Source: Bacteroidales bacterium | GTDB lineage: Bacteria; Bacteroidota; Bacteroidia; Bacteroidales; F082 | Assembly (NCBI GenBank): GCA_017531225.1 | Contig: JAFXLL010000009.1 | Span: forward strand, 62,001-126,000 | DNA: 64,000 nucleotides | Reading direction: 5' to 3' | Shown here: in pieces, positions 15,757 to 64,000 of the stretch | Layout: each line of letters opens with the position of its first letter | How positions within the stretch are numbered: position 1 is the first letter of the stretch | Program-made: the position numbers and the translations under genes | Notes under the pieces: model-generated | Database searches by the model: none | What the model was told of the DNA's origin: nothing | Seen by the model: only the letters and a program-made list of their open reading frames with translations

Positions 15757-16586
15757 TGCTCGCTAAGATGGATTATCTTGAAAACAATATTGTAGTCGAA
15801 CGTGGTCAGCAGCGCCAGATCGTCGTGCTGGACGACACGGAGCATCTTCAGGCCAACGAGGAGTTCTGCGACATCGTGGTGAAGGAGAACGCCTTTTTGG
15901 AGATGTACCGCATCCAGAACCTCGACGACACGGCCAACCTGAAGACGCATATCCGCATCCATCAGGAGCGCGACAGCCGTGTGCATTTCGTGGTGGTCAG
16001 TTTCAACGCTGGCGACCTTCGCAACCATATTGAGGTCGACATTGACGGCGAGGGCTGCGAGACCAAGGTGTATGGCCTTTATCTGGTGGATAAGAAACAG
16101 CATGTGGAGAACTACCTGAAGATCAACCATAACGTGCCGCATTGCTCGAGCGATACCCGCTTCAAGGGCATCATCGACGATGAGGCTTCGGCGGTGTTCA
16201 ATGGCCATGTGTACGTGGCTCCAGGGGCACAAAAGACGGATGCCCAGCAGAACAACGCCAACATCATCCTGACCTCCACGGCAAAGATCGACACCAAGCC
16301 TTTCTTGGAGATTTACGCCGACGATGTGAAGTGCTCGCACGGTACTTCCACCGGCCAGCTGGATCAAGAGGCCATGTTCTATATGCGTCAGCGTGGCATC
16401 AGCCAGGCCAACGCAAGAATGTTGTTGATGTACGCCTTCGCTGCTGATATCAGCAACCACATTCAGATTGAGGATCTCCACGAGACCATCGACGATATGA
16501 TCAAACGCCGTTTGCGCGGCGAACTCTCGGCTTGCGACCATTGCGTGTTGCATTGCAAAAAACCGGTGAACAATGGACATAAATGA
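15756..16586 (+). CDS. sufD: Fe-S assembly protein SufD, short form
   Basis: 276 residues from the ATG at 15756, which overlaps the sufC stop. The frame also has an ATG at 15732 inside sufC, which I consider less likely. The beta-helix core and C-terminus are clear: DTRFKGIIDDEASAVFNGHV, KCSHGTSTGQLDQEAMFYMRQRGI and a helical end. Typical SufD is about 420-450 residues; the N-terminal region of roughly 150 residues is absent, although sufC is intact up to the junction. A sufS start lies 14 bp inside its 3' end. Confidence 0.9.
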   Translation: MLAKMDYLENNIVVERGQQRQIVVLDDTEHLQANEEFCDIVVKENAFLEMYRIQNLDDTANLKTHIRIHQERDSRVHFVVVSFNAGDLRNHIEVDIDGEGCETKVYGLYLVDKKQHVENYLKINHNVPHCSSDTRFKGIIDDEASAVFNGHVYVAPGAQKTDAQQNNANIILTSTAKIDTKPFLEIYADDVKCSHGTSTGQLDQEAMFYMRQRGISQANARMLLMYAFAADISNHIQIEDLHETIDDMIKRRLRGELSACDHCVLHCKKPVNNGHK

Positions 16587-17874
16587 GATAAGGAAACAGT
16601 TTCCCGTGCTTGACCAGCAGGTGTATGGCAAGCCATTGGTGTACCTTGACAACGCCGCGACTACCCAAAAACCACTATGTGTGATTGAGCGGGAACGCGA
16701 CTATTACCTGCACGAGAACTGCAATATCCATCGTGGGGTGCATTATCTCAGTCAGATGGCCACAGAGGCTTACGAGAACGCCCGCAAGACTGTAGCTCGG
16801 TTTATCAACGCTCCTGAATCCCATGAAATCGTCTTCACGAGAGGCACTACCGAGTCGTTGAATTTGTTGGCAACGTCTTTGGGAATGTTGTTTTTCGACG
16901 GCTACAGAGCTAGCATCCCTTCGGGATGCGATGACCATGGCCTATCTGCATCCCCGTCAGGGGATGCTAGCTCTGTAGGGCGAAACGATTCAATAAAAAT
17001 ATTAATCACCGCCATGGAGCACCATTCCAACCTCGTCCCTTGGCAGCAGATGGTTCAACGTCATGGCGGAGAATTGCTGGTGGTTCCGATGGATGACAAC
17101 GGCGTGCTCGATATTCAGGCATACGAGGAACTGCTGAAACAACGCCCTCAGATTGTGACTATGGCTCACGTCTCGAATACGCTTGCTACGGTGAATCCCA
17201 TCAAGGAGATGATCCGTTTGGCCCATCAATATGGCGCTTTGGCAGTGGTTGACGGTGCCCAATCGATGGCGCATCTGCCTATCGATGTGCAAGATTTGGA
17301 TTGCGACTTCTTCGTGTTCTCAGGCCATAAGATGTACGCCCCCATGGGCATCGGTGGACTGTATGGCAAGACCGAATGGCTCGAAAAGATGCCGCCCTAT
17401 CAGTTCGGTGGTGAGATGGTGGATACGGTGAGTTTCGAGAAGACCACTTTTAACAAATTGCCTTTCAAGTTCGAAGCAGGAACCCCCAATGTAGGCGCTG
17501 CTTTGGGCTTGGAGACGGCAATCAATTTCATTGAAAGCTTTGACCGTCAGGAGGTCGCCAAGCATGAAGATGCTTTGTTGGCGGCTGCTATCGAGGGTCT
17601 TTCAAAGATTGATGGCATACGTTTTATCGGTCAGGCTCCCGAGCGTAGCGGCTTGGTGAGTTTCATCATCGACGGCATCCATCCTTACGATCTTGGCACC
17701 ATTATCGACAAGATGGGTGTGGCCGTCCGCACCGGTCACCATTGCGCTGAGCCCGTGATGACTCGTTTCGGCATCCCAGGAACGGTACGCGCTTCGTTTG
17801 CGATGTATAACACCATGGAGGAAGTGGAAGTGTTGGTGAAGGCGGTGACAAGAGCGTCGAATATGCTGAGATAA
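16573..17874 (+). CDS. sufS: Cysteine desulfurase SufS with in-frame palindromic insert
   Basis: Type II PLP-dependent cysteine desulfurase supplying sulfur for cluster assembly. The PLP lysine is in FVFSGHKMYAP and the catalytic cysteine in RTGHHCAEPVM; FTRGTTESLNLLA and AMEHHSNLVPW are also conserved. At 433 residues it is about 25-30 longer than usual because residues 110-136 are encoded by a palindromic element that breaks the normal sequence between GMLFF and IKILITAMEHH. The frame remains open, so the protein is probably functional with an added surface loop. Confidence 0.95.
   Translation: MDINEIRKQFPVLDQQVYGKPLVYLDNAATTQKPLCVIERERDYYLHENCNIHRGVHYLSQMATEAYENARKTVARFINAPESHEIVFTRGTTESLNLLATSLGMLFFDGYRASIPSGCDDHGLSASPSGDASSVGRNDSIKILITAMEHHSNLVPWQQMVQRHGGELLVVPMDDNGVLDIQAYEELLKQRPQIVTMAHVSNTLATVNPIKEMIRLAHQYGALAVVDGAQSMAHLPIDVQDLDCDFFVFSGHKMYAPMGIGGLYGKTEWLEKMPPYQFGGEMVDTVSFEKTTFNKLPFKFEAGTPNVGAALGLETAINFIESFDRQEVAKHEDALLAAAIEGLSKIDGIRFIGQAPERSGLVSFIIDGIHPYDLGTIIDKMGVAVRTGHHCAEPVMTRFGIPGTVRASFAMYNTMEEVEVLVKAVTRASNMLR
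16902..16978. repeat. Intragenic palindromic element within sufS
   Basis: Outer 18-bp perfect inverted repeat, CTACAGAGCTAGCATCCC at 16902-16919 and its complement at 16961-16978. Inside are two hairpins: GCATCCC-TTC-GGGATGC (16913-16929) and GCATCCCC-GTCA-GGGGATGC (16948-16967). The element is translated in the sufS frame without a stop. The same paired arrangement recurs inside mfd. Confidence 0.9.
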
Positions 17875-17904
17875 AAGATAAGAGATAAAAGATAAAAGTT
17901 AATA
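17872..17904. repeat. A-rich (AGATAAA) intergenic repeat
   Basis: Directly after the sufS stop lies a run of AGATAAAAG/AGATAAG units leading into AGTTAATA and the sufE ATG. The same phrase occurs after the DUF1573 gene and at the right edge of the window. Confidence 0.6.
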
Positions 17905-42476: not shown

Positions 42477-45400
42477 ATGAAAACTAAGTACATATTGCTT
42501 GCATTAGCTTTGTTTTTGCTTTCTGCGGCATCATTCTCACAATGTCTTTCCCCAACAAACCTTACCGTCACAAACGTTACGTCCAACTCGGCCACTGTGA
42601 GTTGGAATGGGAATGCTGACAGCTACACCGTGTGGTATGGGACACCGCCATCCACATCACATTATTTGGGTTATGGTGAAATGACACTCCAGGGAGCTTT
42701 GGGTAATGATTCTGAAAGCACTTGGACATGGGGCGTGATGTTCCCCGGCGAATCGGTGCCTGGCAATGTGCTGACAAAAGTGGGATTCTTTAATACCGTC
42801 AATAATATTAATGATATTACCATCCGAGTGTATTCCGGTGGCGACAACGCTCCAGGGACGCTTTTGTTAACCAAGGTGGTAACTGCCATTCCCAACTCCT
42901 ATCAATTGGTGGTCCTTGATGCTCCTCTACACTTGCCTTCTGGAGAGAACCTTTGGATCACTCTTGAGGAAACGGGTATATGGCTGATGAGCATGACCAA
43001 TGCGACTGACCCCAACAGCAGATGGTATTTTGACGGAAATGCATGGACTCAACAAAGTGTTTATCCTGACAAGGGATGGATTATTCATGGCCACGTTGAA
43101 AACCAGGATTATGAAAACATCTCATGGAACCAGGTCGCTACCACTAACCAGTCGATAGAACTCACAGGTCTGACTCCTGAGACAACATACGACGTCAGGG
43201 TGTTTTCACACTGCAATCAAGGTTACGATAGCGAGATGAGTGAGAGTGTCTCCTTCATTACCAGAGCCTTTGCGTGTCCTACCCCAACTAATCTGGCCGT
43301 TGGTGGCATCACCCATAACTCCGCCGATCTGAATTGGAATGGTGAGAGCGATTCTTATAAGGTGTTGTATCGTCCAAGAATATATGCCCAAGGTCCGTTG
43401 GAAGTTTTCCCGACAACGACCATTCCTTCGGGATGGAGTCAAAAATCCGGTCTGTTGGGAGAGGTGTTGCCGGGGCAAAGTTCACTGACAGACGGTTCTG
43501 CATGGGAATTTGGGGAGAACGACAACGTATTTGACAGCCACGCCAAACTTAGTCTCGTTCCAAACGTTCACCACTGGCTCATTTCACCCACTGTTGCCAT
43601 CGCCAATAACAACATTCTCAACTTTGATATAGCCTTGACTGTGTATTCGTACCATGGGCCCTATGACTTGTTTGCCGTGCTTGTCCAAGATGTCGATTCG
43701 GGCCAATGGAGCCTATTGAGGCAATGGAACAACCAGGGCCCGAGTTACGTATTGCAAGACATCAGCCAAACAGGCGAGAATGTTAGTGTTGACCTAAGCG
43801 CCTATGCGGGTAAAAATGTGCGTATCGCCTTTTATGGAGAGAGAAGTGATGATTTTCCTTGGAACGTCCAAATCCATATTGACAATGTTTGTGTTGGCGC
43901 TCCCGTGCCAGAGGGTGAATGGCAGACGGCCGTCAACAATCATCCCGGTACCAGCTATACGCTTACCGGACTTGATCCAGAGACCCCATACGAGGCTAAG
44001 GTGAAGGGCGTTTGCGGAGGTGCCGAAAGTTCGGAGATGAGTGCTGTCAATTTCACCACGTCCTACTGCATCCAAGTACCCACTGATGTAACGGTCTCCG
44101 ACATCGACTATTTCTCCGCTAATCTGGGATGGACGGAGAATAGCACTGCCACGGCATGGCAAATCCAACTTAACGACGAACCTCCGATGGCTGTCATCAC
44201 CAATCCATATACCTTGACCAATCTGAATCCCAACACGGAGTACACCGTTAAAGTGCGTTCTCAACAAGGAGAGTATTTCAGTAACTGGAGCGTTGCTGCC
44301 AATTTCACCACGCTTTTCTATTGCTATCCGCCGACTCAACTTACACTCGTAAAAGGCACCATAGATTCCGCAACCTTGGCCTGGACCGATCTTGGTACCG
44401 CTACCGAATGGCAGCTCTGTATCAATGGTGAAGAGGCTAATTTGGTCACGGTCAACACCAATCAATATGTCATGACCAATTTGGACGCACAAACCCAATA
44501 TACGGTCAAGGTACGTTCCGTTTGCGGTGAAACGTACACTGAATGGAGCAACGAGCTGAGTTTCACCCCGGTTCTCTATTGCAATCCTCCGACGCTTTCT
44601 GTCAGCAACGTCACCACAACCACTGCCGATCTTAGTTGGACAGAGATACCTGGGGCTAATAGTTATTCCATCATCCTGAACACTCCTCCTACTGGCGGAT
44701 CCTACCCGATCATTACGAACTACACGGCTACTCAAGGGACGGCGGGTGTTAACCCAAACGAGGGCTACAATAAACTAGTGGATAACTACGAAACCACCAA
44801 GTGGTGCGCCGTCATGGGTAATGAAGGTGTCTTCGTCGAGTTCCAAAGCGAAACAGCATTCATCCCTTCATCCTATATCCTAACCACTGGCAATGACAAC
44901 GCTACTTGTGTGGGCCGTAATCCCATGGACTGGACCATCAATGCCAAGTTGCACCTTGACGATCCTTGGACGATTATTGATAGTGTCACTGACAACCATG
45001 TGATGCAAAATGTGAACTACACCGACTACGAATTCGAACTCAACAACACCAACGCCTACCGTTACTTCCGTTTCGAGGTGTCTGCTGTCCAAAGCGCCGA
45101 CGCGTTCCAACTGAGTGAGTTAAAGTTCAGGGGACAAGTCATATCCTACAATGTAACGTCCACAAGTTTACAACTTACCAACCTCACCCCCGGAACAGAC
45201 TATTCCGCCAGAGTGTTCGGCAACATCGGAGAAATGTCCACCAATTGGAGCAATGAAGTCAACTTCACCACGTCCTTCGTGGCACCAATCAATCTAACCG
45301 CCACCTCCATGACCTATAGCTCCGTTGTCTTGGCTTGGACTGATAATAACGGCATTCCTGGATGGCAAATCTGTCTCAATGACGACGAAACCAACCTGAT

Positions 45401-48400
45401 TGATGCTTCCACCAATCCCTTTATCCTTACGGGATTGACCCAACAGACGCAATACACCGTTAAAGTGCGAGCCAGTCACGAAGGAAACGTTAGCGATTGG
45501 AGCGAATCCATCAATTTCACCACAAAGAGCTTATATCAGGAACCGACTGATCTTGCCGTCACTGAAATCCATTCAGACCACGTTATCCTGAATTGGACTG
45601 AGAACAGCGACGCTACCGAATGGAGAATCTGCCTCAATGGTGATATGACCAACTTGATTACCGTTGACTCACGTCCGTATACCTTAGATGGCTTGACACC
45701 CGAAAGCGCCTACACTGTCAAGATAAGCGCCTACCATGATGGTTTGTTTAGCGATTGGAGTAATTCAATAAGTTTCACCACGCTGGTCCTCACTCCGAGC
45801 CTTACGGTTAGCAATGTCAACCAAACCAGTGCCAACCTTAACTGGACAAGAACATCCGGGGCGAATTATACCGTGAGATACAATCGAATACCCACCGCTT
45901 TGGAAACGGTCATTTTTACTGGCTACGAAAACGGTTCTTCGAATTGGGCCTATGGTTATATGGGTTCGCAACCGACAAGTTCCATGGTCAATAATACTTC
46001 CCATTCGGGTTCATATAGTTTCCAATTCGTTGCGAACTCTGGAACTAATGCCCAGTTCCAAGTCTCGCCTTCTTTTGAGGATTGTTTTTATTTGGAGTTT
46101 TATTATAAAACCAACAATACCAGTGAAACTTTCCAGATACTCTTCGATATTGGCAACAACAACCAATCCAGTACCGAGGAGATCTCTGTTAATACCAATG
46201 GACAGTGGCAAAAGTTCACCTGCGACATCCCACAAAACATCACAAAACTAAGAATCAAGTACTGCTCCCAATCCCAGAGTGCTTTATGGATTGACGACAT
46301 CGTCATAGCTTCGGACCACTTGACCGTTGAAACCAACACCAATAGCGCACAACTCACTGGCCTCGTTCCGGGAGATACCTATTCCGTCAAGGTACAAACC
46401 AAACACGGAGTACATTACAGTGAGTGGAGTGATGCGGTAGAATTCACCACCTATGATCCGCCAACCAATCTAACGGTAAGCAACCTCGCCGAAACGGTTG
46501 CTACCATTGGTTGGACCGAAAATGGCAACGCCACCCAATGGCAGCTTTGCCTCAACAATGACCAAAACAATCTGATTGCCGTCAACACCAATCCTTTTAC
46601 CTTGGAGGGTTTGACCCAAGAGACGCATTACACCGTCAAGGTACGAGACTGCTATGAAGGGGTTTACAGTGCTTGGAGTGATGCTATCGGTTTCACCACG
46701 CTCGCCTATTGTGCTGCACCGACTGACCTTGCCGTTGACGATATCATGAGACATTCGGCCACCTTGAGTTGGAATGCCAACAGTGATTCCTACAAGGTGT
46801 TCTACAGGACTACGGGAGAATGGATTCTCGCCGCTGAAAATCTCTCCGAAACCACCTTTACCCTTACTGGACTTGATGCCAAGACTCACTATGAAGCTTG
46901 TGTGAAGGGTGTCTGCAATGGCATTGAGAGCAATGCTTCGAACAGCATCGATTTTTATACGCTCCTCGATAACGTCCCGACACTTACGGTTGACGATATC
47001 ACTTGTACAAGCGCTGGGCTCTTCTGGACAGAAACTCCTGGGGCGGATAGCTATACGGTTAGCTTGAACAACTCCATCGAAATCCCTGTTAATTCTGGCT
47101 ATACCGCCGACACCGCCAACCCAGAGGGTTCGAACAATGAGAGGTATACCAATCTTGTGGATAACAACAAGAATTCAAAGTGGTTTGTCAACAAAAACGA
47201 CGGTAACGGCCATTTTGCCGGTTGCTATATTGAGTTCCACAGCCAGCATGTCTTTATTCCTACGGGTTATGTCTTAACTACGGCCAGTGATACTGATAAT
47301 AGTGGTACTCATCCAGGACGCAATCCAAAAAGCTGGGTCATCAAGGCAAAGCTGAATGCGGAAGATGAGTGGACGACTATTGAAAGCGTCACAGACAACT
47401 ATGTGATGCAAAATGAGCCCTTAACCGATTACAATTTCTCGCTCGATAACAATGAGCCCTACCGTTACTTCCGCTTTGAAGTATCGGATGTGCAGAGTGG
47501 GTATAGGTTCCAGCTTGGCGAGATGAGGTTCTTGGGAGACTCGAAAAACAGTGTTTATCTTACCGACCTTGAACCTGCAACAGCTTATTCCGCCAAAGTT
47601 CGTGCTAAGATCGGGGAGATTAACGGCGAATGGAGCGATGAAGTCAACTTCAGCACACTCTACCTGACGCCAACCAACCTAACCGTCACTAATCTCGATT
47701 ATACCTCTGTCACTTTGGACTGGACTGAGAATGGCGGCGCCAACCATTGGCAGCTATGCCTCAACGATGACGAGGACAACCTGATTGACGCCGACTCCAA
47801 TCCGTTTACCATAACGGGGCTAACCCAACATTCTGATTACACTGCCAAAGTACGAGTCAAACAAGGAGAAGGCTACAGTTCCTGGAGCGATATAGTCCGT
47901 TTCGCAACGCTTTTCGATGTCATTTCTCCGACGCTTACTGTGAACAATGTGACATCAACCTCTGCCGACCTCAACTGGACTGAAATAATCGGGGTAGATG
48001 GCTATACCGTCAGCCTCAATGACGCTATTGTTAGTTTCCCCAGTCAGATCATCACAGGCTATACAGCCACCTCAGGTGCGGGAGGGTACAACACAAACGA
48101 GGACTACGCCAACCTGGTGGATAACGATAGGAGTACCAAGTGGTGCCGCAAGATGGAAAATGTCTATATCGAGTTCCATAGCGAATCGAGATTTGTCCCT
48201 ACAGGGTATATCCTTACCACAGGCAGCGACAATGCTACGGCTCATGGCCGCAACCCCAAGGATTGGGTTATCAAAGCCAAGTTGAAGGTTGGCGATCCTT
48301 GGACTACCATCGCCACCGTCACCAACGACCAGGTGCTGCAAGACGTGAACACCACCGACTTTGAGTTTGCCATCGATAATCACTTACCCTACCGTTACTT

Positions 48401-51400
48401 CCGCTTTGAGGTGTCGGCGAACCATGGCAACGATTCTTTCCAGCTCGGTGAGTTCAGGTTTTTGGGATATGTCCCAACCAACAGCCTGCACCTTACCAAC
48501 CTGCTTCCTGAAACCGACTATACCGTCAAAGTGCGCTGTGACCAAGAGGGAATACACTCTGAGTGGAGCAATACGGTCAACTTTAGAACGCTATACCTGC
48601 CACCAACCGAGTTGACGGTTTCCGATATCGACCATTGCTCAGCTACCTTGGGCTGGACCTCAAATAGCAACATCGCCCAATGGCAAATCTGCCTCAATGG
48701 CGATGAAGACCATCTGATCCTAACCAATGCTAATCCATACACCTTGACTGGTCTGGATCAACATACTCATTACACCGTCAAAGTGAGGAACCATCAAGAA
48801 GGAGCTGACGATGCATGGAGCGATGAAATCGGTTTCACCACGCTTTTCAACATCATTGCTCCCACAGTTACGGTCAACAACATTACCCTGACCACTGCTA
48901 TTCTCAATTGGGAGGAAATAATCGGAGCGGATGGCTATACCGTTAGCGTGAACGACTCCATCATCCCCAATCCGATCATTACAGGCTATACGGCTACCAA
49001 AGGTACATCGGGTTACAGCGGGGAGAATTATCCCAATCTGGTGGATAACGACAGGAGTACCAAGTGGTGCGTCGGTCAGTCGAATAATATTTACATCGAG
49101 TTCAATACCACATCTAGCTTTATTCCTACAGGCTATGTACTGACCACAGGCAATGATGCTAATCATAATCCACAGCGCAATCCTAAAGACTGGGTCATCA
49201 AGGCCAAGTTGAACGCTGGTGACGCTTGGACGACCATTGACAGCATTACCAACGACAATGTACTTCAGGCCAAGGATACAACAGATTATGAGTTTGCCAT
49301 CGATAATCATGCAGTTTACCGTTACTTCCGCTTTGAGGTAAAGGCGGTCCAAAATGGAGATTCGTTCCAGCTCGGCGAGCTGAGGTTCAGGGGGAAGACC
49401 CTGGCCAACAGCCTGCATCTCACCAACCTGCTTCCCGAAACCGACTATGCCGTCAAAGTACGCGGTGACTTTGGGGAAACGCATTCCGAATGGAGCAATA
49501 CGGTCAACTTTAGAACACTCTACCTGCCACCAACCAATTTGACGGTTTCTGATATCGGCTATAACTCAGCGACCTTGGGTTGGGCAGCAAATAGCAACAT
49601 CACCCAGTGGCAAATCTGCCTCAACGGCGATGAAGAAAATCTGATTATGGTCAATACAAATCCATACATCTTGACTGGTCTGGATCAACATACGCATTAC
49701 ACCGTCAAAGTGAGGAACCATCAAGAAGGAGCTGACGATGCATGGAGCAATGAAATCGGATTCACCACACTTTTCAACATCATTGCTCCCACAGTTACGG
49801 TCAACAACATTACCCTGACCACTGCTGTTCTCAATTGGGAGGAAATAATCGGAGCGGATGGCTATACCGTTAGCGTGAACGACTCCATCATCCCCGATCC
49901 GATCATTACAAGCTACACAGTCACCGATGGTACGAATGGTTACAGCGACAATGAGGGCTGCGCTAAACTTGTGGATAACGACAGGAGTACCAAGTGGTGC
50001 CGTTGGTCGAACAATATTTATATCGAGTTCAACAGTCAGCATGACTTTATTCCCACAGGTTATGTACTGACCACAGCTGCAGACGCTCAAAAGAATCCAC
50101 AACGCAATCCTAAAGACTGGGTCATCAAGGCCAAGTTGAACGATGGTGACGAATGGACGACCATCGCCACGGTTACCAACGACAATGTACTTCAGGCCAA
50201 GGATACAACAGATTATGAGTTTGCCATCGATAATCATTTACCCTACCGTTACTTCCGCTTTGAGGTGTCAGCAGTCCAAAGCGGTGACAGCTTCCAACTC
50301 GGCGAACTGAGGTTCAGAGGGAAGACACCGACCAATAGCCGGACACTCACCGGACTCCTTCCTGAAACCGAGTATGCCATCAAGGTGCGGGCTGACTTCG
50401 GGGATGCTTTCAGCGTTTGGAGCGAGGAAGTCAGCTTCGTCACGTTCGATGGTATTACCTTCTTTGTCAATGGCAACTGGAATGATCCTGATAAATGGAA
50501 TATTAGTCGGGTTCCCGGTGCTGACGATGACGTGTATATTGTCGCCCAAGCCGTTGTTCCTGCAGGTTATACCGCCCAGGTGAAACAGGCCAATGTAAAT
50601 GACGGTGGTAGTATCACCATCGAGGATAGTGGCCAGTTCATCGCCGAAAATGAAGTCAAGGTGGCAATGCGGAAGAACATCTCGGCTTGGACCACTGATC
50701 CTGTGGGAGGATGGTATTTCATTGTCTCGCCGGTCAATACGGAAGACTCAGATTATAGCGTTACTGGATTAATCTCTGAAATCGAAGGGAAAGATTACGA
50801 CCTCTATCAACTCAATGCCACTGTTTGGGAGAACTATAAGGCAGAGGGTAGTCACTATCAGTTCGCCCTCGAACAAGGACGAGGCTACCTCTATGCCAGC
50901 GAAAACGGCACAGAGATTGAGTTTAACGGCAATACCGTACCATACGATGAAACCTCCATACCGCTGTCTGATGGCTTCAACCTCGTTGGCAATCCATATA
51001 CCTTCAACACCTACGTCAACAGGCCTTATTATAAGTTGAACTCTGACCGTACCGACATTGAATTGGTGAATGATAACTTGGTTATCGCACCTTGTGAGGG
51101 CGTGTTGATTGAAGCCGAGGGAGCGGATGAAGTGATTTTCACAAAGACGAACCAACTGGCTCAGGCTACGAATAACGGCAACCTGAATATCGCTGTGGCG
51201 CATCAGGCCTCCAGTCGCGGTGTTGCAGCCACTTCTGATAAGGCTGTCGTAAGCTTCAACGAAGGCGGTCAACTTGGTAAGTTCTACTTCATGCAACAGG
51301 ATGCCAATATCTACATCCCGCAAGACGGCAAGGACTTCGCCATTGCTTTCAGCAAGAAGCAAGGAGAGATGCCGCTGTGTTTCAAAGCTATGAAGAATGG

Positions 51401-51791
51401 CAAGTACACCATTACGGTCGCTCCTGAAAACGTGAAAGTGGGTTACCTACACCTTATTGATAATCTGACCGGTACCGACGTCGATTTGCTGGCAACGTCG
51501 AGCTATACCTTCGAAGGCAGGACAGACGACTACGTCTCCCGATTCAAACTGGTGTTCATTGCTTATGACAATGCCGATAACGATGACTTTGCCTTTATCA
51601 GTAATGGCGACATCATTATCAATGGCAAAGGCTTGATCCAGGTAGTCGATGTCCTTGGAAGAACGGTGCTCAGTAAGAATCTCTTAAATTCTACCTCTCA
51701 CCTCTCAACTCTCACCTTAAAATCCGGAGTGTACGTGCTTCGCCTCGTTAAAGGCAGAGAAGTGAAGACGCAGAAGATTATTCTCCCATAG
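42477..51791 (+). CDS. Giant T9SS adhesin of Fn3 and discoidin-like modules
   Basis: 3104 residues. A signal peptide (MKTKYILLALALFLLSAASF) is followed by about 17 fibronectin III modules, recognised by starts such as PTNLTVTNL and ends such as YTVKVR. Five of them contain an inserted F5/8-type C (discoidin-like) domain, with NLVDNDRSTKW and YRYFRFEVSA motifs; modules 1, 2 and 8 carry other beta-sandwich inserts. Near residue 2660 a WNDPDKWNISRVPGADDDV domain begins, and the last 70 residues are a T9SS type A sorting domain. It is predicted to be exported to the surface and to bind glycans or proteins. It converges on mfd with a 14-bp overlap. Confidence 0.9.
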   Translation: MKTKYILLALALFLLSAASFSQCLSPTNLTVTNVTSNSATVSWNGNADSYTVWYGTPPSTSHYLGYGEMTLQGALGNDSESTWTWGVMFPGESVPGNVLTKVGFFNTVNNINDITIRVYSGGDNAPGTLLLTKVVTAIPNSYQLVVLDAPLHLPSGENLWITLEETGIWLMSMTNATDPNSRWYFDGNAWTQQSVYPDKGWIIHGHVENQDYENISWNQVATTNQSIELTGLTPETTYDVRVFSHCNQGYDSEMSESVSFITRAFACPTPTNLAVGGITHNSADLNWNGESDSYKVLYRPRIYAQGPLEVFPTTTIPSGWSQKSGLLGEVLPGQSSLTDGSAWEFGENDNVFDSHAKLSLVPNVHHWLISPTVAIANNNILNFDIALTVYSYHGPYDLFAVLVQDVDSGQWSLLRQWNNQGPSYVLQDISQTGENVSVDLSAYAGKNVRIAFYGERSDDFPWNVQIHIDNVCVGAPVPEGEWQTAVNNHPGTSYTLTGLDPETPYEAKVKGVCGGAESSEMSAVNFTTSYCIQVPTDVTVSDIDYFSANLGWTENSTATAWQIQLNDEPPMAVITNPYTLTNLNPNTEYTVKVRSQQGEYFSNWSVAANFTTLFYCYPPTQLTLVKGTIDSATLAWTDLGTATEWQLCINGEEANLVTVNTNQYVMTNLDAQTQYTVKVRSVCGETYTEWSNELSFTPVLYCNPPTLSVSNVTTTTADLSWTEIPGANSYSIILNTPPTGGSYPIITNYTATQGTAGVNPNEGYNKLVDNYETTKWCAVMGNEGVFVEFQSETAFIPSSYILTTGNDNATCVGRNPMDWTINAKLHLDDPWTIIDSVTDNHVMQNVNYTDYEFELNNTNAYRYFRFEVSAVQSADAFQLSELKFRGQVISYNVTSTSLQLTNLTPGTDYSARVFGNIGEMSTNWSNEVNFTTSFVAPINLTATSMTYSSVVLAWTDNNGIPGWQICLNDDETNLIDASTNPFILTGLTQQTQYTVKVRASHEGNVSDWSESINFTTKSLYQEPTDLAVTEIHSDHVILNWTENSDATEWRICLNGDMTNLITVDSRPYTLDGLTPESAYTVKISAYHDGLFSDWSNSISFTTLVLTPSLTVSNVNQTSANLNWTRTSGANYTVRYNRIPTALETVIFTGYENGSSNWAYGYMGSQPTSSMVNNTSHSGSYSFQFVANSGTNAQFQVSPSFEDCFYLEFYYKTNNTSETFQILFDIGNNNQSSTEEISVNTNGQWQKFTCDIPQNITKLRIKYCSQSQSALWIDDIVIASDHLTVETNTNSAQLTGLVPGDTYSVKVQTKHGVHYSEWSDAVEFTTYDPPTNLTVSNLAETVATIGWTENGNATQWQLCLNNDQNNLIAVNTNPFTLEGLTQETHYTVKVRDCYEGVYSAWSDAIGFTTLAYCAAPTDLAVDDIMRHSATLSWNANSDSYKVFYRTTGEWILAAENLSETTFTLTGLDAKTHYEACVKGVCNGIESNASNSIDFYTLLDNVPTLTVDDITCTSAGLFWTETPGADSYTVSLNNSIEIPVNSGYTADTANPEGSNNERYTNLVDNNKNSKWFVNKNDGNGHFAGCYIEFHSQHVFIPTGYVLTTASDTDNSGTHPGRNPKSWVIKAKLNAEDEWTTIESVTDNYVMQNEPLTDYNFSLDNNEPYRYFRFEVSDVQSGYRFQLGEMRFLGDSKNSVYLTDLEPATAYSAKVRAKIGEINGEWSDEVNFSTLYLTPTNLTVTNLDYTSVTLDWTENGGANHWQLCLNDDEDNLIDADSNPFTITGLTQHSDYTAKVRVKQGEGYSSWSDIVRFATLFDVISPTLTVNNVTSTSADLNWTEIIGVDGYTVSLNDAIVSFPSQIITGYTATSGAGGYNTNEDYANLVDNDRSTKWCRKMENVYIEFHSESRFVPTGYILTTGSDNATAHGRNPKDWVIKAKLKVGDPWTTIATVTNDQVLQDVNTTDFEFAIDNHLPYRYFRFEVSANHGNDSFQLGEFRFLGYVPTNSLHLTNLLPETDYTVKVRCDQEGIHSEWSNTVNFRTLYLPPTELTVSDIDHCSATLGWTSNSNIAQWQICLNGDEDHLILTNANPYTLTGLDQHTHYTVKVRNHQEGADDAWSDEIGFTTLFNIIAPTVTVNNITLTTAILNWEEIIGADGYTVSVNDSIIPNPIITGYTATKGTSGYSGENYPNLVDNDRSTKWCVGQSNNIYIEFNTTSSFIPTGYVLTTGNDANHNPQRNPKDWVIKAKLNAGDAWTTIDSITNDNVLQAKDTTDYEFAIDNHAVYRYFRFEVKAVQNGDSFQLGELRFRGKTLANSLHLTNLLPETDYAVKVRGDFGETHSEWSNTVNFRTLYLPPTNLTVSDIGYNSATLGWAANSNITQWQICLNGDEENLIMVNTNPYILTGLDQHTHYTVKVRNHQEGADDAWSNEIGFTTLFNIIAPTVTVNNITLTTAVLNWEEIIGADGYTVSVNDSIIPDPIITSYTVTDGTNGYSDNEGCAKLVDNDRSTKWCRWSNNIYIEFNSQHDFIPTGYVLTTAADAQKNPQRNPKDWVIKAKLNDGDEWTTIATVTNDNVLQAKDTTDYEFAIDNHLPYRYFRFEVSAVQSGDSFQLGELRFRGKTPTNSRTLTGLLPETEYAIKVRADFGDAFSVWSEEVSFVTFDGITFFVNGNWNDPDKWNISRVPGADDDVYIVAQAVVPAGYTAQVKQANVNDGGSITIEDSGQFIAENEVKVAMRKNISAWTTDPVGGWYFIVSPVNTEDSDYSVTGLISEIEGKDYDLYQLNATVWENYKAEGSHYQFALEQGRGYLYASENGTEIEFNGNTVPYDETSIPLSDGFNLVGNPYTFNTYVNRPYYKLNSDRTDIELVNDNLVIAPCEGVLIEAEGADEVIFTKTNQLAQATNNGNLNIAVAHQASSRGVAATSDKAVVSFNEGGQLGKFYFMQQDANIYIPQDGKDFAIAFSKKQGEMPLCFKAMKNGKYTITVAPENVKVGYLHLIDNLTGTDVDLLATSSYTFEGRTDDYVSRFKLVFIAYDNADNDDFAFISNGDIIINGKGLIQVVDVLGRTVLSKNLLNSTSHLSTLTLKSGVYVLRLVKGREVKTQKIILP
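48600..50330 (+). repeat. Tandem 927-bp repeat units within the adhesin gene
   Basis: Two adjacent units with an exact spacing of 927 bp (309 codons), for instance CCATCAAGAAGGAGCTGACG at 48791 and 49718. Each unit codes one plain Fn3 module and one Fn3 module with a discoidin-like insert. A more diverged copy precedes them. Long identical stretches point to recent duplication or gene conversion. Confidence 0.8.
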
Positions 51792-54700
51792 CTCTGACGA
51801 TATCCAAAGCCTGTGTCACCGTGCTCACCTCCTTGATGGTGAGGATGAGCTTGGCATGGGCTTCTTTCACGCTGCAGCGCTTGGGATGGGTGATGATGTA
51901 TTGCATCACCTTATGGTACGTTTCGGTCTCATAATAGGGCGATTCCTGATTGCTGACGAAATGGGCGATCATCAGGTTGTCGCGCAGAGCGATCTTCTCA
52001 AAGCCTAAATCCTTAGCTGCCCAGCGCAGGCGCACAGTGTTGAGCAGGTCGTTGACAGGCTTGGGCAACGGACCGAAACGGTCGATGAGCTGTCCGGTGA
52101 ACTCCACCAGTCTTTCCTCGGTCTTGATGTGGTCGAGCTCAGTGTACAGGCTGATACGCTCGGCTGTGGAACTGACGTATTCGGAAGGCAACATCACTTC
52201 CATGTCGGTCTCAATGGCGCAATCAGTGACATATACCAATTCGGTTTCCTTATCGAAGAGATCTGCGAATTCGTTTTCCTTCAGCTCGGCGATAGCTTCG
52301 TCGAGGATCTTATGGTAGGTTTCAAAACCGATGTCGTTGATAAAGCCGCTCTGCTCGGCGCCTAAGAGGTTGCCTGCACCGCGGATGTCCAAGTCGCGCA
52401 TGGCGATGTTGATGCCGTTGCCGAGGTCAGAGAACTCCTCCAAGGCACGGAGGCGCTTCTGGGCCTCTTCGGTGAGGGTGTTGAAAGGCGGGGTGAGCAG
52501 GTAGCAGAAAGCTTTTTTATTGGAACGTCCAACACGTCCCCTGAGCTGGTGCAGGTCGCTGAGACCGAAGCGGTGGGCGTCGTTGACGATGATGGTGTTG
52601 GCGTTGGGAATGTCGAGACCCGACTCCACGATGGTGGTACAAAGCAACACGTCGTATTCGCCTGCGATAAAGTCGAGCATGATCTCCTCCAGTTTGGAGC
52701 CTTCCATCTGACCGTGAGCCACGGCGATGCGGCACCCAGGCACATAACTCATAATGAGGTCGTGCACATCCATGATGTTCTGCACTCGGTTATGGATGAA
52801 GAACACCTGCCCATTGCGGGCCATCTCGAAGAGGATGGCCTCACGGATGAGCTCGCCGTCGAAGGCTCTAAGCTCGGTCTGCACGGGATAGCGGTTGGGT
52901 GGGGGAGTGTTGATCACGCTGAGGTCGCGTGCGCCCATCATGGAGAACTGCAACGTTCTGGGGATCGGGGTGGCGGTGAGGGTCAGCGTATCTACGTTAG
53001 CCTTCATCTCTTTGAGTTTCTCCTTCACGGCGACGCCAAACTTCTGCTCCTCGTCGATGATGAGCAGGCCTAAGTCTTTGAATTTAACGTCTTTGCCCGT
53101 GAGTCGATGGGTTCCGATGATGATGTCGATATGGCCTTCTTCCAGCTTCTTCAGAATCTCTTTCTGCTGTTTAGCGCTCTTGAATCTGTTGAGATATTCG
53201 ATATTGACCGGGAAGCCGTCCAAACGGTTTTTGAAGGTCTGGTAATGCTGTAAGGCGAGCACGGTGGTAGGCACCAACACCGCCACTTGCTTGCTGTCGG
53301 TTGCAGCCTTAAAAGCGGCGCGGATGGCCACCTCGGTCTTGCCGAAGCCTACGTCGCCGCACACCAGGCGGTCCATGGGACTCTCTGACTCCATGTCGCG
53401 TTTCACGTCGTTGGTGGCCTTGAGTTGGTCGGGGGTGTCTTCATAGAGGAACGAAGCCTCGAGCTCAGTCTGCAAGTAACTGTCGGGGGCGAACTGGAAA
53501 CCTTTGCTGCGCTTGCGCTCGGCGTAAAGCTTGATGAGCTCACGGGCGATGTCCTTAACCTTACTCTTGGTCTTGGATTTGAGTCGGTTCCAAGTGTTGG
53601 ATCCAAGGGTGCTCAAACTCGGTTCGGCGCCGTCCTTGGAGCTGTATTTGGCAATCTGGTGGAGCGAGTGGACGCTGATGTAAAGCGTGTCGCCGTGGTT
53701 GTATGTGATGCGCAGCACCTCTTGCTCCTTGCCGTGCAGCTCGATGGTCATCAGTCCCTCGAAGCGTCCGATGCCATGGTCGATATGGGTGACATAGTCG
53801 CCGGGCTTCAGGTCGTAGAGGTCCTTGAGGGTGATGGCCTGCTTGGTGCTGAAGTTGTCTCGCAGGTGATAGCGATGGTAACGCTCGAAGATCTGGTGAT
53901 CGGTGTAGCGGCACACCTTGTTGTCGTGATCGATGAAGCCCGCATGGATGGCGATGAGCTTTCGCTCGAAGTCACTATGCAGCTCATCGTGATGCTGGAT
54001 GTCATTCAGGATGGCCTGGATGCGGTCCAGTTGCTTGGAACTCTCCGAATAGAGGATGATTTGGTAGCCTTTCTCCTTATAGTCGTTGAGATTTTCAATG
54101 AGAAGGTTGAAGTTCTTGTTGAAGATAGGCTGGGGTGTGGTGTGGAAAGAGGCATCCCCGCCAGGGGATGCTAGCTTTGTAGCCAACGAATCCACATTAT
54201 CATTCGCATCCCGAAGGGATGCTACATTGCCGAATTCTATTGTTGGATGATCTTCCAAAGCCTTCAACAGTTCTCCCGATTTCGCAAACAGTTTACCAGG
54301 TGTAATTAATCTATCATCCCCAGGGGATGGGGTGGTGAAGAGGACTCTTTCTATAGAGCTGGCATCCTCTAAGGAGGATGCGGTCATCTTCTCCCAGGCT
54401 TCCACCGCGCGCTCGTATTCCTTGTCGATCTGCGTGGCGAAAAAGCCCATCTCTTCGATCCAGATGGTAGTGGCTTTAGGCAGGTATTCCAAGATGGATT
54501 CACGCTCTTCGATGAACGCCTGCTGTTGCATGTTGGGTAACAGCACAATGTTGTTGAACCGCTCGATGGAGAGTTGGCTGGCGATGTCGAAGCTACGGAT
54601 GCTGTCCACCTCATTGCCAAAGAACTCGATACGATAGGGGTTGTCATTGGCGAAGGAATACACGTCGATTAATCCGCCACGGACGGCGAATTGGCCCGGC

Positions 54701-55233
54701 TCCACCACGAAATCCACATTCTCGAAGCCGTACTCATAGAGCAGATCAGTGAGGAAATCGAGGTTGATCTTATCGCCTTGTTTCACCTTGAAGGTGTTCT
54801 TAGCTAAAAGCTTGCGTGTGAAGACTTTCTCTGAGAGTGCTTCGGGATAGCTGACGATAACCGTTCTCCTTTCGCTGGTGGAGAGGCGTTGCAGCACCTC
54901 GGTACGCGAGAGGATATAGGTGTTGTCAGGACGTTCTGGCTCGTAAGGGCGTTTGTAGGAGGTGGGGTAGAAGAGGATTTGTTTCTTGCTGTAATCCATC
55001 TCTCGTTCGCCGAACAGGGCTTCCAGGTCATTATAGAAGTAGGCTGCGTCTTCTTTCGAAGCGCAGATCACTAAGTGTTGTCCGCCTTTCTCACGGAATT
55101 GTTCCTCCACGGCAAATGCCTTGGCGGATCCCACAAGGCCAGAATAGAGAATATGTTTGGGTGTTTCGGACAAGGATTGATACTTTTCGGGGAGCAAAGA
55201 TAGCGTTTTTTTGTGGAGTCGTGCCGAAGGCAC
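51778..55233 (-). CDS. mfd: Transcription-repair coupling factor Mfd with in-frame palindromic inserts
   Basis: 1151-residue frame. Mfd removes RNA polymerase stalled at lesions and recruits UvrA. Visible are the UvrB-like N-terminal module, the RNA-polymerase-interacting region (LKPGDYVTHIDHGIGRFEGL), the RecG-like motor with GDVGFGKTEVAIRA and IIDEEQKFGV, and the C-terminal domain. Residues 285-307 and 338-361 are coded by palindromic elements. The start is unclear: the frame opens with a GTG inside a REP hairpin at 55231-55233, while a TATCTTTG box near 55199 suggests a later non-ATG start, perhaps the TTG at 55173. Confidence 0.95.
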   Translation of the reverse strand: MPSARLHKKTLSLLPEKYQSLSETPKHILYSGLVGSAKAFAVEEQFREKGGQHLVICASKEDAAYFYNDLEALFGEREMDYSKKQILFYPTSYKRPYEPERPDNTYILSRTEVLQRLSTSERRTVIVSYPEALSEKVFTRKLLAKNTFKVKQGDKINLDFLTDLLYEYGFENVDFVVEPGQFAVRGGLIDVYSFANDNPYRIEFFGNEVDSIRSFDIASQLSIERFNNIVLLPNMQQQAFIEERESILEYLPKATTIWIEEMGFFATQIDKEYERAVEAWEKMTASSLEDASSIERVLFTTPSPGDDRLITPGKLFAKSGELLKALEDHPTIEFGNVASLRDANDNVDSLATKLASPGGDASFHTTPQPIFNKNFNLLIENLNDYKEKGYQIILYSESSKQLDRIQAILNDIQHHDELHSDFERKLIAIHAGFIDHDNKVCRYTDHQIFERYHRYHLRDNFSTKQAITLKDLYDLKPGDYVTHIDHGIGRFEGLMTIELHGKEQEVLRITYNHGDTLYISVHSLHQIAKYSSKDGAEPSLSTLGSNTWNRLKSKTKSKVKDIARELIKLYAERKRSKGFQFAPDSYLQTELEASFLYEDTPDQLKATNDVKRDMESESPMDRLVCGDVGFGKTEVAIRAAFKAATDSKQVAVLVPTTVLALQHYQTFKNRLDGFPVNIEYLNRFKSAKQQKEILKKLEEGHIDIIIGTHRLTGKDVKFKDLGLLIIDEEQKFGVAVKEKLKEMKANVDTLTLTATPIPRTLQFSMMGARDLSVINTPPPNRYPVQTELRAFDGELIREAILFEMARNGQVFFIHNRVQNIMDVHDLIMSYVPGCRIAVAHGQMEGSKLEEIMLDFIAGEYDVLLCTTIVESGLDIPNANTIIVNDAHRFGLSDLHQLRGRVGRSNKKAFCYLLTPPFNTLTEEAQKRLRALEEFSDLGNGINIAMRDLDIRGAGNLLGAEQSGFINDIGFETYHKILDEAIAELKENEFADLFDKETELVYVTDCAIETDMEVMLPSEYVSSTAERISLYTELDHIKTEERLVEFTGQLIDRFGPLPKPVNDLLNTVRLRWAAKDLGFEKIALRDNLMIAHFVSNQESPYYETETYHKVMQYIITHPKRCSVKEAHAKLILTIKEVSTVTQALDIVRAMGE
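54152..54222. repeat. Intragenic palindromic element A within mfd
   Basis: Two hairpins, GCATCCCC-GCCA-GGGGATGC (54152-54171) and GCATCCC-GAA-GGGATGC (54206-54222). In the coding direction the order, hairpins and flanking AGCTAGCATCCCC match the element in sufS. Translated without a stop as part of Mfd. Confidence 0.88.
54315..54381. repeat. Intragenic palindromic element B within mfd
   Basis: CATCCCC-A-GGGGATG (54315-54329) and GCATCCTC-TAAG-GAGGATGC (54362-54381), separated by sequence that includes CTATAGAGCT, close to the CTACAGAGCT of the sufS element. A more diverged member of the same family, also in frame. Confidence 0.75.
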
Positions 55234-55335
55234 GATATTTTATTAACCCCACACTAAGCGAAGCACAGTGTGGGGCTTAGCAGTATGGGGGGATAGGAAC
55301 TCCTCTCTATCCTCTGAGGCGTGCCGGAGGCACGC
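55220..55335. repeat. REP hairpins on the left of the transposase
   Basis: CGTGCC-GAA-GGCACG (55220-55234), then CCCCACACT paired with AGTGTGGGG (55247-55275), then GCGTGCC-GGA-GGCACGC (55319-55335). Two hairpin types alternate. The first covers the frame start of mfd. Confidence 0.88.
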
Positions 55336-55377
55336 TACAGTAACACAATAAAACCATATGTTATACGTTATATGATT

Positions 55378-55833
55378 ATGAGTTATACTACAACATATTA
55401 TCATATCGTTTTTCGCACCTATAAAAGCGAACAAACAATTCCAATTAAACATGAGAAGGAACTGTATGCCTATTTTCTTGGTATCGTGAAAAACATCCGT
55501 GGTCAGGTCTATCGCATCGGTGGTATGCCCGACCATGTCCATTTATTCGTTTCATTACCGCCATCTCTATCTTTGGCCTCTTTCGTTCAGCGAGTGAAGA
55601 CTGACAGTAGTAAATGGATGAAGGCAAATCCGCATTTCCCACTTTTTCAAGGGTGGGGACGGGAATATGCTGGTTTCAGCTATAGTCTTCGTGATAAAGA
55701 TAAGATTATCGGCTATATCATGCGACAGAAAGAGCATCATCGAGTGACTACTTTTGCTGAGGAATACAGAGCTTTTCTTATGGAGAACGGAATTGCTATC
55801 GATGAGCGTTATTTCCTCAATGATACGCTGTAG
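55378..55833 (+). CDS. IS200-like REP-associated tyrosine transposase (Y1 type)
   Basis: 151 residues from the ATG at 55378. The HUH motif is HVH at residues 53-55 and the nucleophile tyrosine is Tyr113 in GYIMRQKEHH, the IS200/IS605 signature. It is close in length to IS200-type TnpA. There is no TnpB or IscB partner, and REP hairpins rather than simple IS ends surround it, so it resembles the single-copy RAYT enzymes that act on REP sequences. All visible catalytic residues are intact. Confidence 0.9.
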   Translation: MSYTTTYYHIVFRTYKSEQTIPIKHEKELYAYFLGIVKNIRGQVYRIGGMPDHVHLFVSLPPSLSLASFVQRVKTDSSKWMKANPHFPLFQGWGREYAGFSYSLRDKDKIIGYIMRQKEHHRVTTFAEEYRAFLMENGIAIDERYFLNDTL

Positions 55834-60360: not shown

Positions 60361-60819
60361 ATGATGAAAACCATAAAACTATTGATATTAGTGGCGCTGT
60401 CGGTGGTCATGGCCTCATGCCACAACGGCAACGACAAAAAGCTCTCGGGCGATTTAGTGACCAATCCCAAGTCGGCACAGAGCCCCTCGGACAAGGCTCC
60501 TGTGATCAAGTTCGACAAGACGGAGTTCGACTTCGGTAAGATCCTTCAGGGTGAGGTGGTGTCATACACCTTCCATTTCACCAACACCGGCAACGCCCCG
60601 TTACTCATCACCAATGTCGATAAGAGCTGCGGATGCACTGCCAGTGAATATCCACGCACGCCGATTGAACCGGGTGGCTCAGGCGACATCAAGATAACCT
60701 ACGACAGCAAAGGTCATCATGGCTTCCAGTCGAAGGCGCTGGTGGTCATTTCCAATACCATTCCCTCGCAAACTACCCTGCGTATCAAGGCTGAGGTGAG
60801 AACGCCGAATCAGTTGTAA
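60361..60819 (+). CDS. DUF1573 lipoprotein
   Basis: 152 residues. Lipoprotein signal with lipobox (VVMASC). The mature part is an immunoglobulin-like DUF1573 domain: FDKTEFDFGKILQGEVVSY, FTNTGNAPLLI, and the conserved KSCGCTASEYP cysteines. Relatives sit in the Bacteroidota envelope with unknown function. It is preceded by the CHU_C gene and followed by an A-rich repeat and yajC. Confidence 0.85.
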   Translation: MMKTIKLLILVALSVVMASCHNGNDKKLSGDLVTNPKSAQSPSDKAPVIKFDKTEFDFGKILQGEVVSYTFHFTNTGNAPLLITNVDKSCGCTASEYPRTPIEPGGSGDIKITYDSKGHHGFQSKALVVISNTIPSQTTLRIKAEVRTPNQL

Positions 60820-60850
60820 GATAAAAGTTAATAGATAAAAGATAAAAGTT
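60818..60850. repeat. A-rich (AGATAAA) intergenic repeat
   Basis: After the DUF1573 stop: AGATAAAAGTTAATAGATAA, then a further AGATAAAAG unit leading into TTTAATG. Same phrase as between sufS and sufE. Confidence 0.6.
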
Positions 60851-63424: not shown

Positions 63425-63996
63425 TGGATAACTACGTCTATATCGTGGCCGGCCTGCCGGAACTGACCTCGGGCTTCGAGAATACGGGCTTCGACTATAG
63501 CGCCGTCAAGGAAAGCATCATGGAACTGCTCTCCGAGAAGGATCAGCAACTGGTCGAGCTCATGGAAGAAGGCTTCGACGAGAATACCCTCGGCGCCGAC
63601 TTCTACGCCAAGGCCGCCGAGAGCAAAAACCGCTTCATCCGTGAGTACTTCGACTTCGACGGACGCCTGCGTAACCTCAAGGTGCAGTACCTGGCCAAAC
63701 GCCTCGGCAAACAAGGCGACAACTACCTCGTGGAATTACCCGAAGCCGACTTTGAAGAGGAGAAGCTGATAATGGATATCCTTGCCGAAGCCGACTTCGT
63801 GCAACGTGAGCAGAAGATGGATGAGTTGAAATGGGAAAAGGCATCCGATATCGCTCGCTTGGATTACTTCAACATGAACGCCATCCTGGCTTTTATGGTG
63901 AAAGCGAAAACCGTACAGCGTTGGGCTGAACTCGACCCTGCCAAAGGACAGGAGATGTTCAAGAAGTTGGTAAATGAGATAAAAGATAAGAGATAA
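63424..63996 (+). CDS. DUF2764 protein of the V-type ATPase operon
   Basis: 190 residues, mostly helical. It begins with YVYIVAGLPELTSG and continues with a helical, acidic region. It matches the DUF2764 proteins encoded between subunits E and A in Bacteroidota V-type ATPase operons. Known relatives are often longer, but the stop here is followed by an A-rich spacer, so the gene looks complete. The function is probably structural or assembly related. Confidence 0.75.
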   Translation: MDNYVYIVAGLPELTSGFENTGFDYSAVKESIMELLSEKDQQLVELMEEGFDENTLGADFYAKAAESKNRFIREYFDFDGRLRNLKVQYLAKRLGKQGDNYLVELPEADFEEEKLIMDILAEADFVQREQKMDELKWEKASDIARLDYFNMNAILAFMVKAKTVQRWAELDPAKGQEMFKKLVNEIKDKR

Positions 63997-64000
63997 AAGA
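63977..64000. repeat. A-rich (AGATAAA) repeat at the window edge
   Basis: AGATAAAAGATAAGAGATAA and onward, overlapping the last codons and stop of the DUF2764 gene. It is the same phrase as after sufS, so the repeat can extend into a coding end. Confidence 0.6.

Follow-up and report, generated by a model that had tools for sequence, protein, structure and literature searches.

How does short palindromic DNA come to be read as protein inside a transcription-repair coupling factor? The question is raised by a Bacteroidales genome (2.58 Mb assembly, completeness 98.4%), whose closest named relatives, as far as mfd is concerned, come from yak, buffalo, goat and red deer and are Bacteroidales MAGs. 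In the window (the whole stretch of 64,000 nucleotides that was analysed) the mfd gene occupies positions 51778–55233 on the reverse strand and encodes a transcription-repair coupling factor of 1151 aa with the Pfam domains TRCF, DEAD, Helicase_C, UvrB_inter and RID; it adjoins an open reading frame of 3104 aa (42477–51791). Two palindromic elements lie within mfd and are read on the same strand, element A (54152–54226, residues about 338–361) and element B (54310–54381, residues about 285–308), and a related pair (16902–16978, forward strand) lies in a class-V aminotransferase gene (16573–17874, forward strand; Pfam Aminotran_5), which the initial annotation called sufS. The answer developed below is that elements A and B are probably REP-like (REPIN-type) DNA that a Y1 transposase moves in trans and that proteins tolerate in their variable loops.

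In the direction of the gene, element A consists of a hairpin (54222–54206), a spacer, the head CTACAAAGCTAG (54183–54172) and a second hairpin (54171–54152), and element B of a hairpin (54381–54362), the tail CAGCTCTATAG, a spacer and a short-loop hairpin (54329–54315); a better-preserved homologous copy of element B is found at loci L019 and L020. The sufS pair reads CTACAGAGCTAGC-hairpin followed by hairpin-GCTAGCTCTGTAG, with a perfect 18-nt terminal inverted repeat. There are, in all, four hairpins in mfd (two per element) and two in sufS. The initial annotation had described A and B as palindromic-family members lying 93 bp apart, in frame inside mfd and read through as linker of the protein; the distance is correct, and the pattern matches, the shuffles and the read-through of the mfd frame bear out the rest. 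It had also taken element A to repeat the sufS layout, which holds in so far as both belong to one palindromic family and fails in the order and spacing of the parts: in the sufS pair the CTACAGAGCTAG heads are outer to both hairpins and the hairpin starts are 35 bp apart, whereas in element A, which is not a clean inverted pair, one head stands between the two hairpins and the distance from start to start is 51 bp (17 codons).

One rival explanation is that these residues are native linker in which palindromes arose by chance, or that they are an artefact of assembly. The poor conservation of the linker agrees with this. However, each of two palindrome patterns has five matches in the window, against 0.01 and 0.02 expected after dinucleotide shuffling; the single-stranded DNA folds of elements A and B have z values of -3.7 and -3.2 (0 and 1 of 200 shuffles, respectively, being equal or better); copies are dispersed; and homologous copies occur in three other assemblies (G008, G034 and G037). 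The shuffle controls, the folds and the dispersed copies rule out a native linker with chance palindromes, and this explanation, artefact included, is regarded as extremely improbable.

The unit of the family is a hairpin of the form GCATCC..GGATGC, with a CATCC core and a variable inner stem and loop, which carries the 12-nt head CTACAGAGCTAG on one side and is often paired, the two hairpin starts of a typical pair being roughly 50–56 bp apart. Stem position 6 is paired in 66 of 71 cases (C-G 41, G-C 23, T-A 2; loci L222 and L227 are left out here and from the non-coding spacings given below), while positions 1–5 are uninformative on pairing because the search pattern fixes them. Searches of the window genome returned 10 strict and 23 looser palindromes and, when neighbours in the retrieved loci are counted, 26 hairpins were recognised at 13 sites, a number from which diverged copies may be missing and which leaves out two loose matches with unpaired arms (C4:112526 and C8:120188) and one chance match (L133). 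Six of these hairpins are intragenic (mfd and sufS). The other 20 lie at ten sites, none of which, judging from open frames alone, has at least 40 open-frame codons on both sides, and five of which (L134, L135, L136, L138 and L139) border on an open stretch of at least 100 aa or are close to its end. With 20 of 26 hairpins at sites lacking a two-sided open frame, the idea that the element favours coding sites finds no support.

Measured against REP and REPIN sequences, the family shows a short palindrome capable of forming a hairpin, as well as the inverted-pair (REPIN/BIME) layout, which is seen in the sufS pair and in many non-genic pairs. GTAG (GT[AG]G) is not the rule at the 5' foot of the stem, where CTAG is usual; it is found there in the first hairpin of element A and in the mfd copies of G037 and G008, and CTAC/GTAG stands 8 nt outside the stem foot. 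High copy number was not found either, the maximum being 31 pattern matches per genome among 61 genomes of the genus.

Within those 61 genomes the head-hairpin pattern is present in ten, at 31 places in G037, 17 in G020, 13 in the window genome (G000), 6 in G055, 4 in G008, 3 in G034, 2 each in G036 and G038, and 1 each in G051 and G060. In-frame copies in sister species are found in six kinds of gene, namely mfd, sufS, polA, a topoisomerase III-like gene, dnaX and a ComEA-like gene. G037 has coding copies in all six (with five hairpins in mfd, and the ComEA-like gene being of the helix-hairpin-helix type), G020 in the topoisomerase III-like gene and polA, G013 in polA, and G008 and G034 in mfd. 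The topoisomerase gene, which is incomplete, is named topoisomerase III by NCBIfam with a score below the cut-off. In the dnaX of G037 (L219), about ten tandem NGASQPMTT-like peptide repeats directly precede the palindrome insert.

The coding copies follow a rule of phase: 29 of 30 hairpins are placed so that GCA TCC are read as codons. This count leaves out one chance match (polA residue 144), includes both of the near-identical G008 and G034, and draws on 18 genes, five of which (mfd, topB and polA of G036; topB and polA of G000) had no hairpin or no frame. The sole hairpin out of phase is the first one of sufS; the short-loop hairpin of element B, which the pattern missed and which is outside the 30, is in the common phase. 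For 13 of 14 coding pairs, as compared with 7 of 39 other pairs, the spacing between hairpins is divisible by three, and for the coding pairs this is to be expected from the survival of in-frame insertions alone. It had been pointed out that the element has no stop in the frame used, which is true, but it is no special property, since three of the six frames of the unit contain no stop (YRASI.., TELAS.. and ..DASSV), and these are the frames used where a coding copy has kept its head intact.

The site of insertion in Mfd is prone to changes in length. Among 30 Mfd proteins of the genus, 31 distinct internal gap runs (which are not independent events) were counted, 29 of them within residues 280–364, and the linker varies from 59 to 97 residues. 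The inserts are absent from the alleles of relatives; the initial annotation had held that the same linker residues in distant Mfd orthologues with non-palindromic DNA would speak against its claim, and when sought in the Mfd of relatives they were absent. In an AlphaFold model the inserts are predicted as low-confidence coil (pLDDT below 50 at residues 290–308 and 338–358), as are 11 other segments of what is a poor model (mean 67.5), which makes this weak support for their location in loops.

The same loops of mfd, sufS and polA are occupied by unrelated repeats in relatives. In other species the Mfd linker is taken up by a TSPIDSS element, by a palindrome of the CFVPRNDA type or by heptad-repeat peptides. 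Copies of the TCATTGCGAGGA palindrome are dispersed (23 places in G008, 18 in G034 and 14 in G004); 10 of the 11 genomes searched have it, and sufS, polA or mfd genes account for six of its places. The TSPIDSS insert, considered as one more dispersed repeat, mostly is not one: with one mismatch it has 17 matches in 12 of 61 genomes, 8 of the 17 being in mfd. A suspected 1.1-kb insertion in the mfd of L076 turned out to be merely a weak second match. In the C-terminal part of Mfd, G036 is the genome most similar to the window (98%), and its mfd has none of the hairpins of elements A and B and carries other repeats instead. The frame of this gene is broken in the second linker (L302, G036:C101:1-2000), near a CTCACCT-type heptad array, and the break may be real slippage or an assembly error. 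The exact boundary or target of insertion could not be read from comparisons of the sufS, polA and topoisomerase loci, from which 2 of 18, 3 of 18 and 8 of 15 loci, respectively, were left out for missing anchors.

Heptamer repeats form a separate set of observations. Tandem arrays of the GGAAAAC and GGAGTTA types are followed by their own reverse complement, so that the array is a long hairpin, at L247, L249 (sufS loop), L263, L266 (polA linker) and the start of L019 (beside mfd); they occur in frame within genes and also beside them. In the window, period-7 tandem repeats (AGATAAA and ACCTCTC types) are located at 17869–17902, 51693–51717, 60818–60848 and 63977–64000, one of them directly 3' of the sufS stop codon.

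The recurrence of inserts in a few genes can also be viewed as the outcome of selection, the hairpins or the linkers they encode modulating the function of Mfd, PolA, DnaX and topoisomerase; for intragenic REPs, PMC3733652 speculates on a role as mutators or in regulation. As in that 2013 survey, genes of DNA metabolism are prominent among the hosts (mfd, polA, dnaX and the topoisomerase III-like gene, four of six kinds in a raw count), and the hairpin sequence of element B differs between G000 and G008/G034 with its pairing retained. The retained pairing is, however, equally explained by a newer replacement with another copy; moreover, the same loops in relatives hold unrelated repeats or nothing, and the inserts vary even between close species (G020 and G036). 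Selection is considered quite unlikely.

Returning to mobile DNA, the family is associated in sister species with a transposase gene. Its palindromes flank a Y1 transposase gene on either side in G037, G020 and G055 (loci L176, L181 and L183), and the three genomes with a Y1 protein whose identity to that of L181 reaches 76% or more hold 31, 17 and 6 copies. Stems were examined at 32 Y1 loci, 30 of which gave a protein (L130 and L184 have no usable open frame). GCATCC/TCATCC stems adjoin six of the nine Y1 genes of the matching clade and none of the 21 others, and the head CTAC[AC]GA[AG]C is found no more than 500 nt from seven of the same nine, from none of the 21, and from 3 of 80 and 0 of 57 controls; the limit of this nine-member clade was chosen after the identities had been seen. 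Two of the three best cases, L181 and L183, have CTATAGAGC-like variants in place of the exact head motif, and at L182 and L185 the head is accompanied by the stem AAGGCC.

The residues Y---Q--HH are present in 31 of 32 Y1 proteins inspected, including two that adjoin mfd, and a Y..[NQ]P motif, searched with a pattern of our own, in none of the 32. The three proteins scanned all score above the cut-off of the NCBIfam IS200 model (57–76 bits against 55) and below that of the RAYT model (23–26 bits against 80). Judging by its motif, the matching transposase would be an IS200-like protein bearing the signature of TnpA_Y1 subclass 1.2.

The Y1 gene that lies 88 bp from mfd in the window (IS200-like, 55321–55833, forward strand) was considered as the mover of A and B and rejected, given its own flanking palindromes of the GCGTGCC type and its 35% identity to the matching protein. 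The Y1 genes adjacent to mfd in G008 (L019) and G037 (L202, with GCACCCC palindromes) are 63–64% identical to the matching clade, and there may be an older link between the mfd-adjacent gene and the two elements. The window gene and a second one at L131 (C11:182500-184400) are 79% identical to each other, and both lie amid alternating GCGTGCC palindromes (GTAG foot) and CCCCACACT..AGTGTGGGG hairpins. No close copy of the matching transposase was found in the window genome, where the two full Y1 genes are 35–36% identical to the L181 protein and are flanked by GCGTGCC palindromes and not by those of the family. G036, G038, G051 and G060 (1–2 copies each) gave no match at all.

A further possibility is that recombination, gene conversion between copies or slippage spreads the family with no dedicated transposase. 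In its favour, no close transposase was found in the window genome, and the mfd array of G037, which equals that of G008/G034 plus one unit (spacing 54 bp), fits the expansion of an array. Against such a process are the association with one Y1 clade and the greater number of copies where that clade is present, as well as the single units at unrelated sites, which require insertion and for which conversion alone is insufficient. It is therefore rated as unlikely.

Transposition in trans by a Y1 protein remains the preferred explanation. The mover would probably be a stand-alone IS200-like Y1 transposase with Y---Q--HH that recognises the folded single strand and spreads copies in trans, a single-strand chemistry suggested by analogy with the account of TnpA_REP and IS200/IS605 given in PMC8266576. 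Most copies would settle outside genes and a minority would land within them, where survival would need a length divisible by three, a stop-free frame and a site in a variable loop; such sites would be the region of Mfd between the UvrB-interaction domain and RID, the SufS loop, the PolA linker, the DnaX tail and a loop of the topoisomerase III-like protein. The inserts would most likely add near-neutral residues there, which then decay or are replaced by other repeats. Several points count against this explanation: no transposition event was seen in the genome comparisons and no exact boundary or target could be read; the window genome has 13 head-hairpin copies and no close transposase; L181 and L183 lack the exact head; the limit of the clade was chosen with the identities in view; the AlphaFold model is poor; and copy numbers are low for a REP family. 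In the window genome, where no close transposase was found, the repeats have probably become a stranded relic.

A wider proposal, for which the chances appear evenly balanced, is that TnpA_Y1 proteins of subclass 1.2 mobilise a distinct class of CTAC-headed hairpin repeats, and that certain loops of core proteins in this genus are standing landing sites, their amino-acid sequence being rewritten by several kinds of mobile or slipping repeat that are unrelated to one another. The family described here is a likely substrate for this subclass of transposase, for which no partner repeats were found described in the literature. One protein loop with different DNA repeats in sister species amounts to a natural experiment, and since these species overwrite the same loop, the neutrality of the inserts, as opposed to their selection, becomes directly testable.

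Among known systems, the Rickettsia palindromic elements are palindromic inserts that lie in frame within genes, and it is this feature, set beside the present one by description alone, that they have in common with elements A and B. The survey by Di Nocera et al. (2013, PMC3733652) of GTAG and CGTC REPs inside genes describes single or paired palindromes that are mostly non-genic and in some cases in frame, many of the intragenic ones being in replication and repair genes, DNA polymerase I included, whose linkers are suggested to be tolerant; it reports CGTC but not GTAG repeats from Bacteroidetes and allows for small families of 20–100 or fewer copies. The present family is likewise made of short, mostly non-genic palindromes with some in-frame copies in repair and replication genes, and it extends that observation to the Bacteroidales; unlike those repeats, as described there, it has a matching transposase that is IS200-like with Y---Q--HH, its foot is usually CTAG instead of GTAG, with CTAC 8 nt further out, and several unrelated repeats hit the same loops. 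With REPINs and RAYTs, as outlined in PMC3116915 and PMC8266576, it shares inverted palindrome pairs, a Y1 gene between them and copies that presumably act in trans, and it departs from them in RAYT model scores below the cut-off and in copies that reach at most tens per genome searched. Y---Q--HH is given as the signature of TnpA_Y1 subclass 1.2 in the part of a 2018 survey that defines it (PMC6006769); the likeness to that subclass extends to low gene copy number and to occurrence in Bacteroidetes, whereas head-hairpin repeats flank the gene here and that part of the survey names no REP-like partner. In the open-licence literature, neither a REP family tied to TnpA_Y1 subclass 1.2 nor a report of such in-gene repeats in Bacteroidales was found. 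In-gene repeats are already known from other bacteria, and what is new in this case is the class of the transposase and the repeated use of the same loops.
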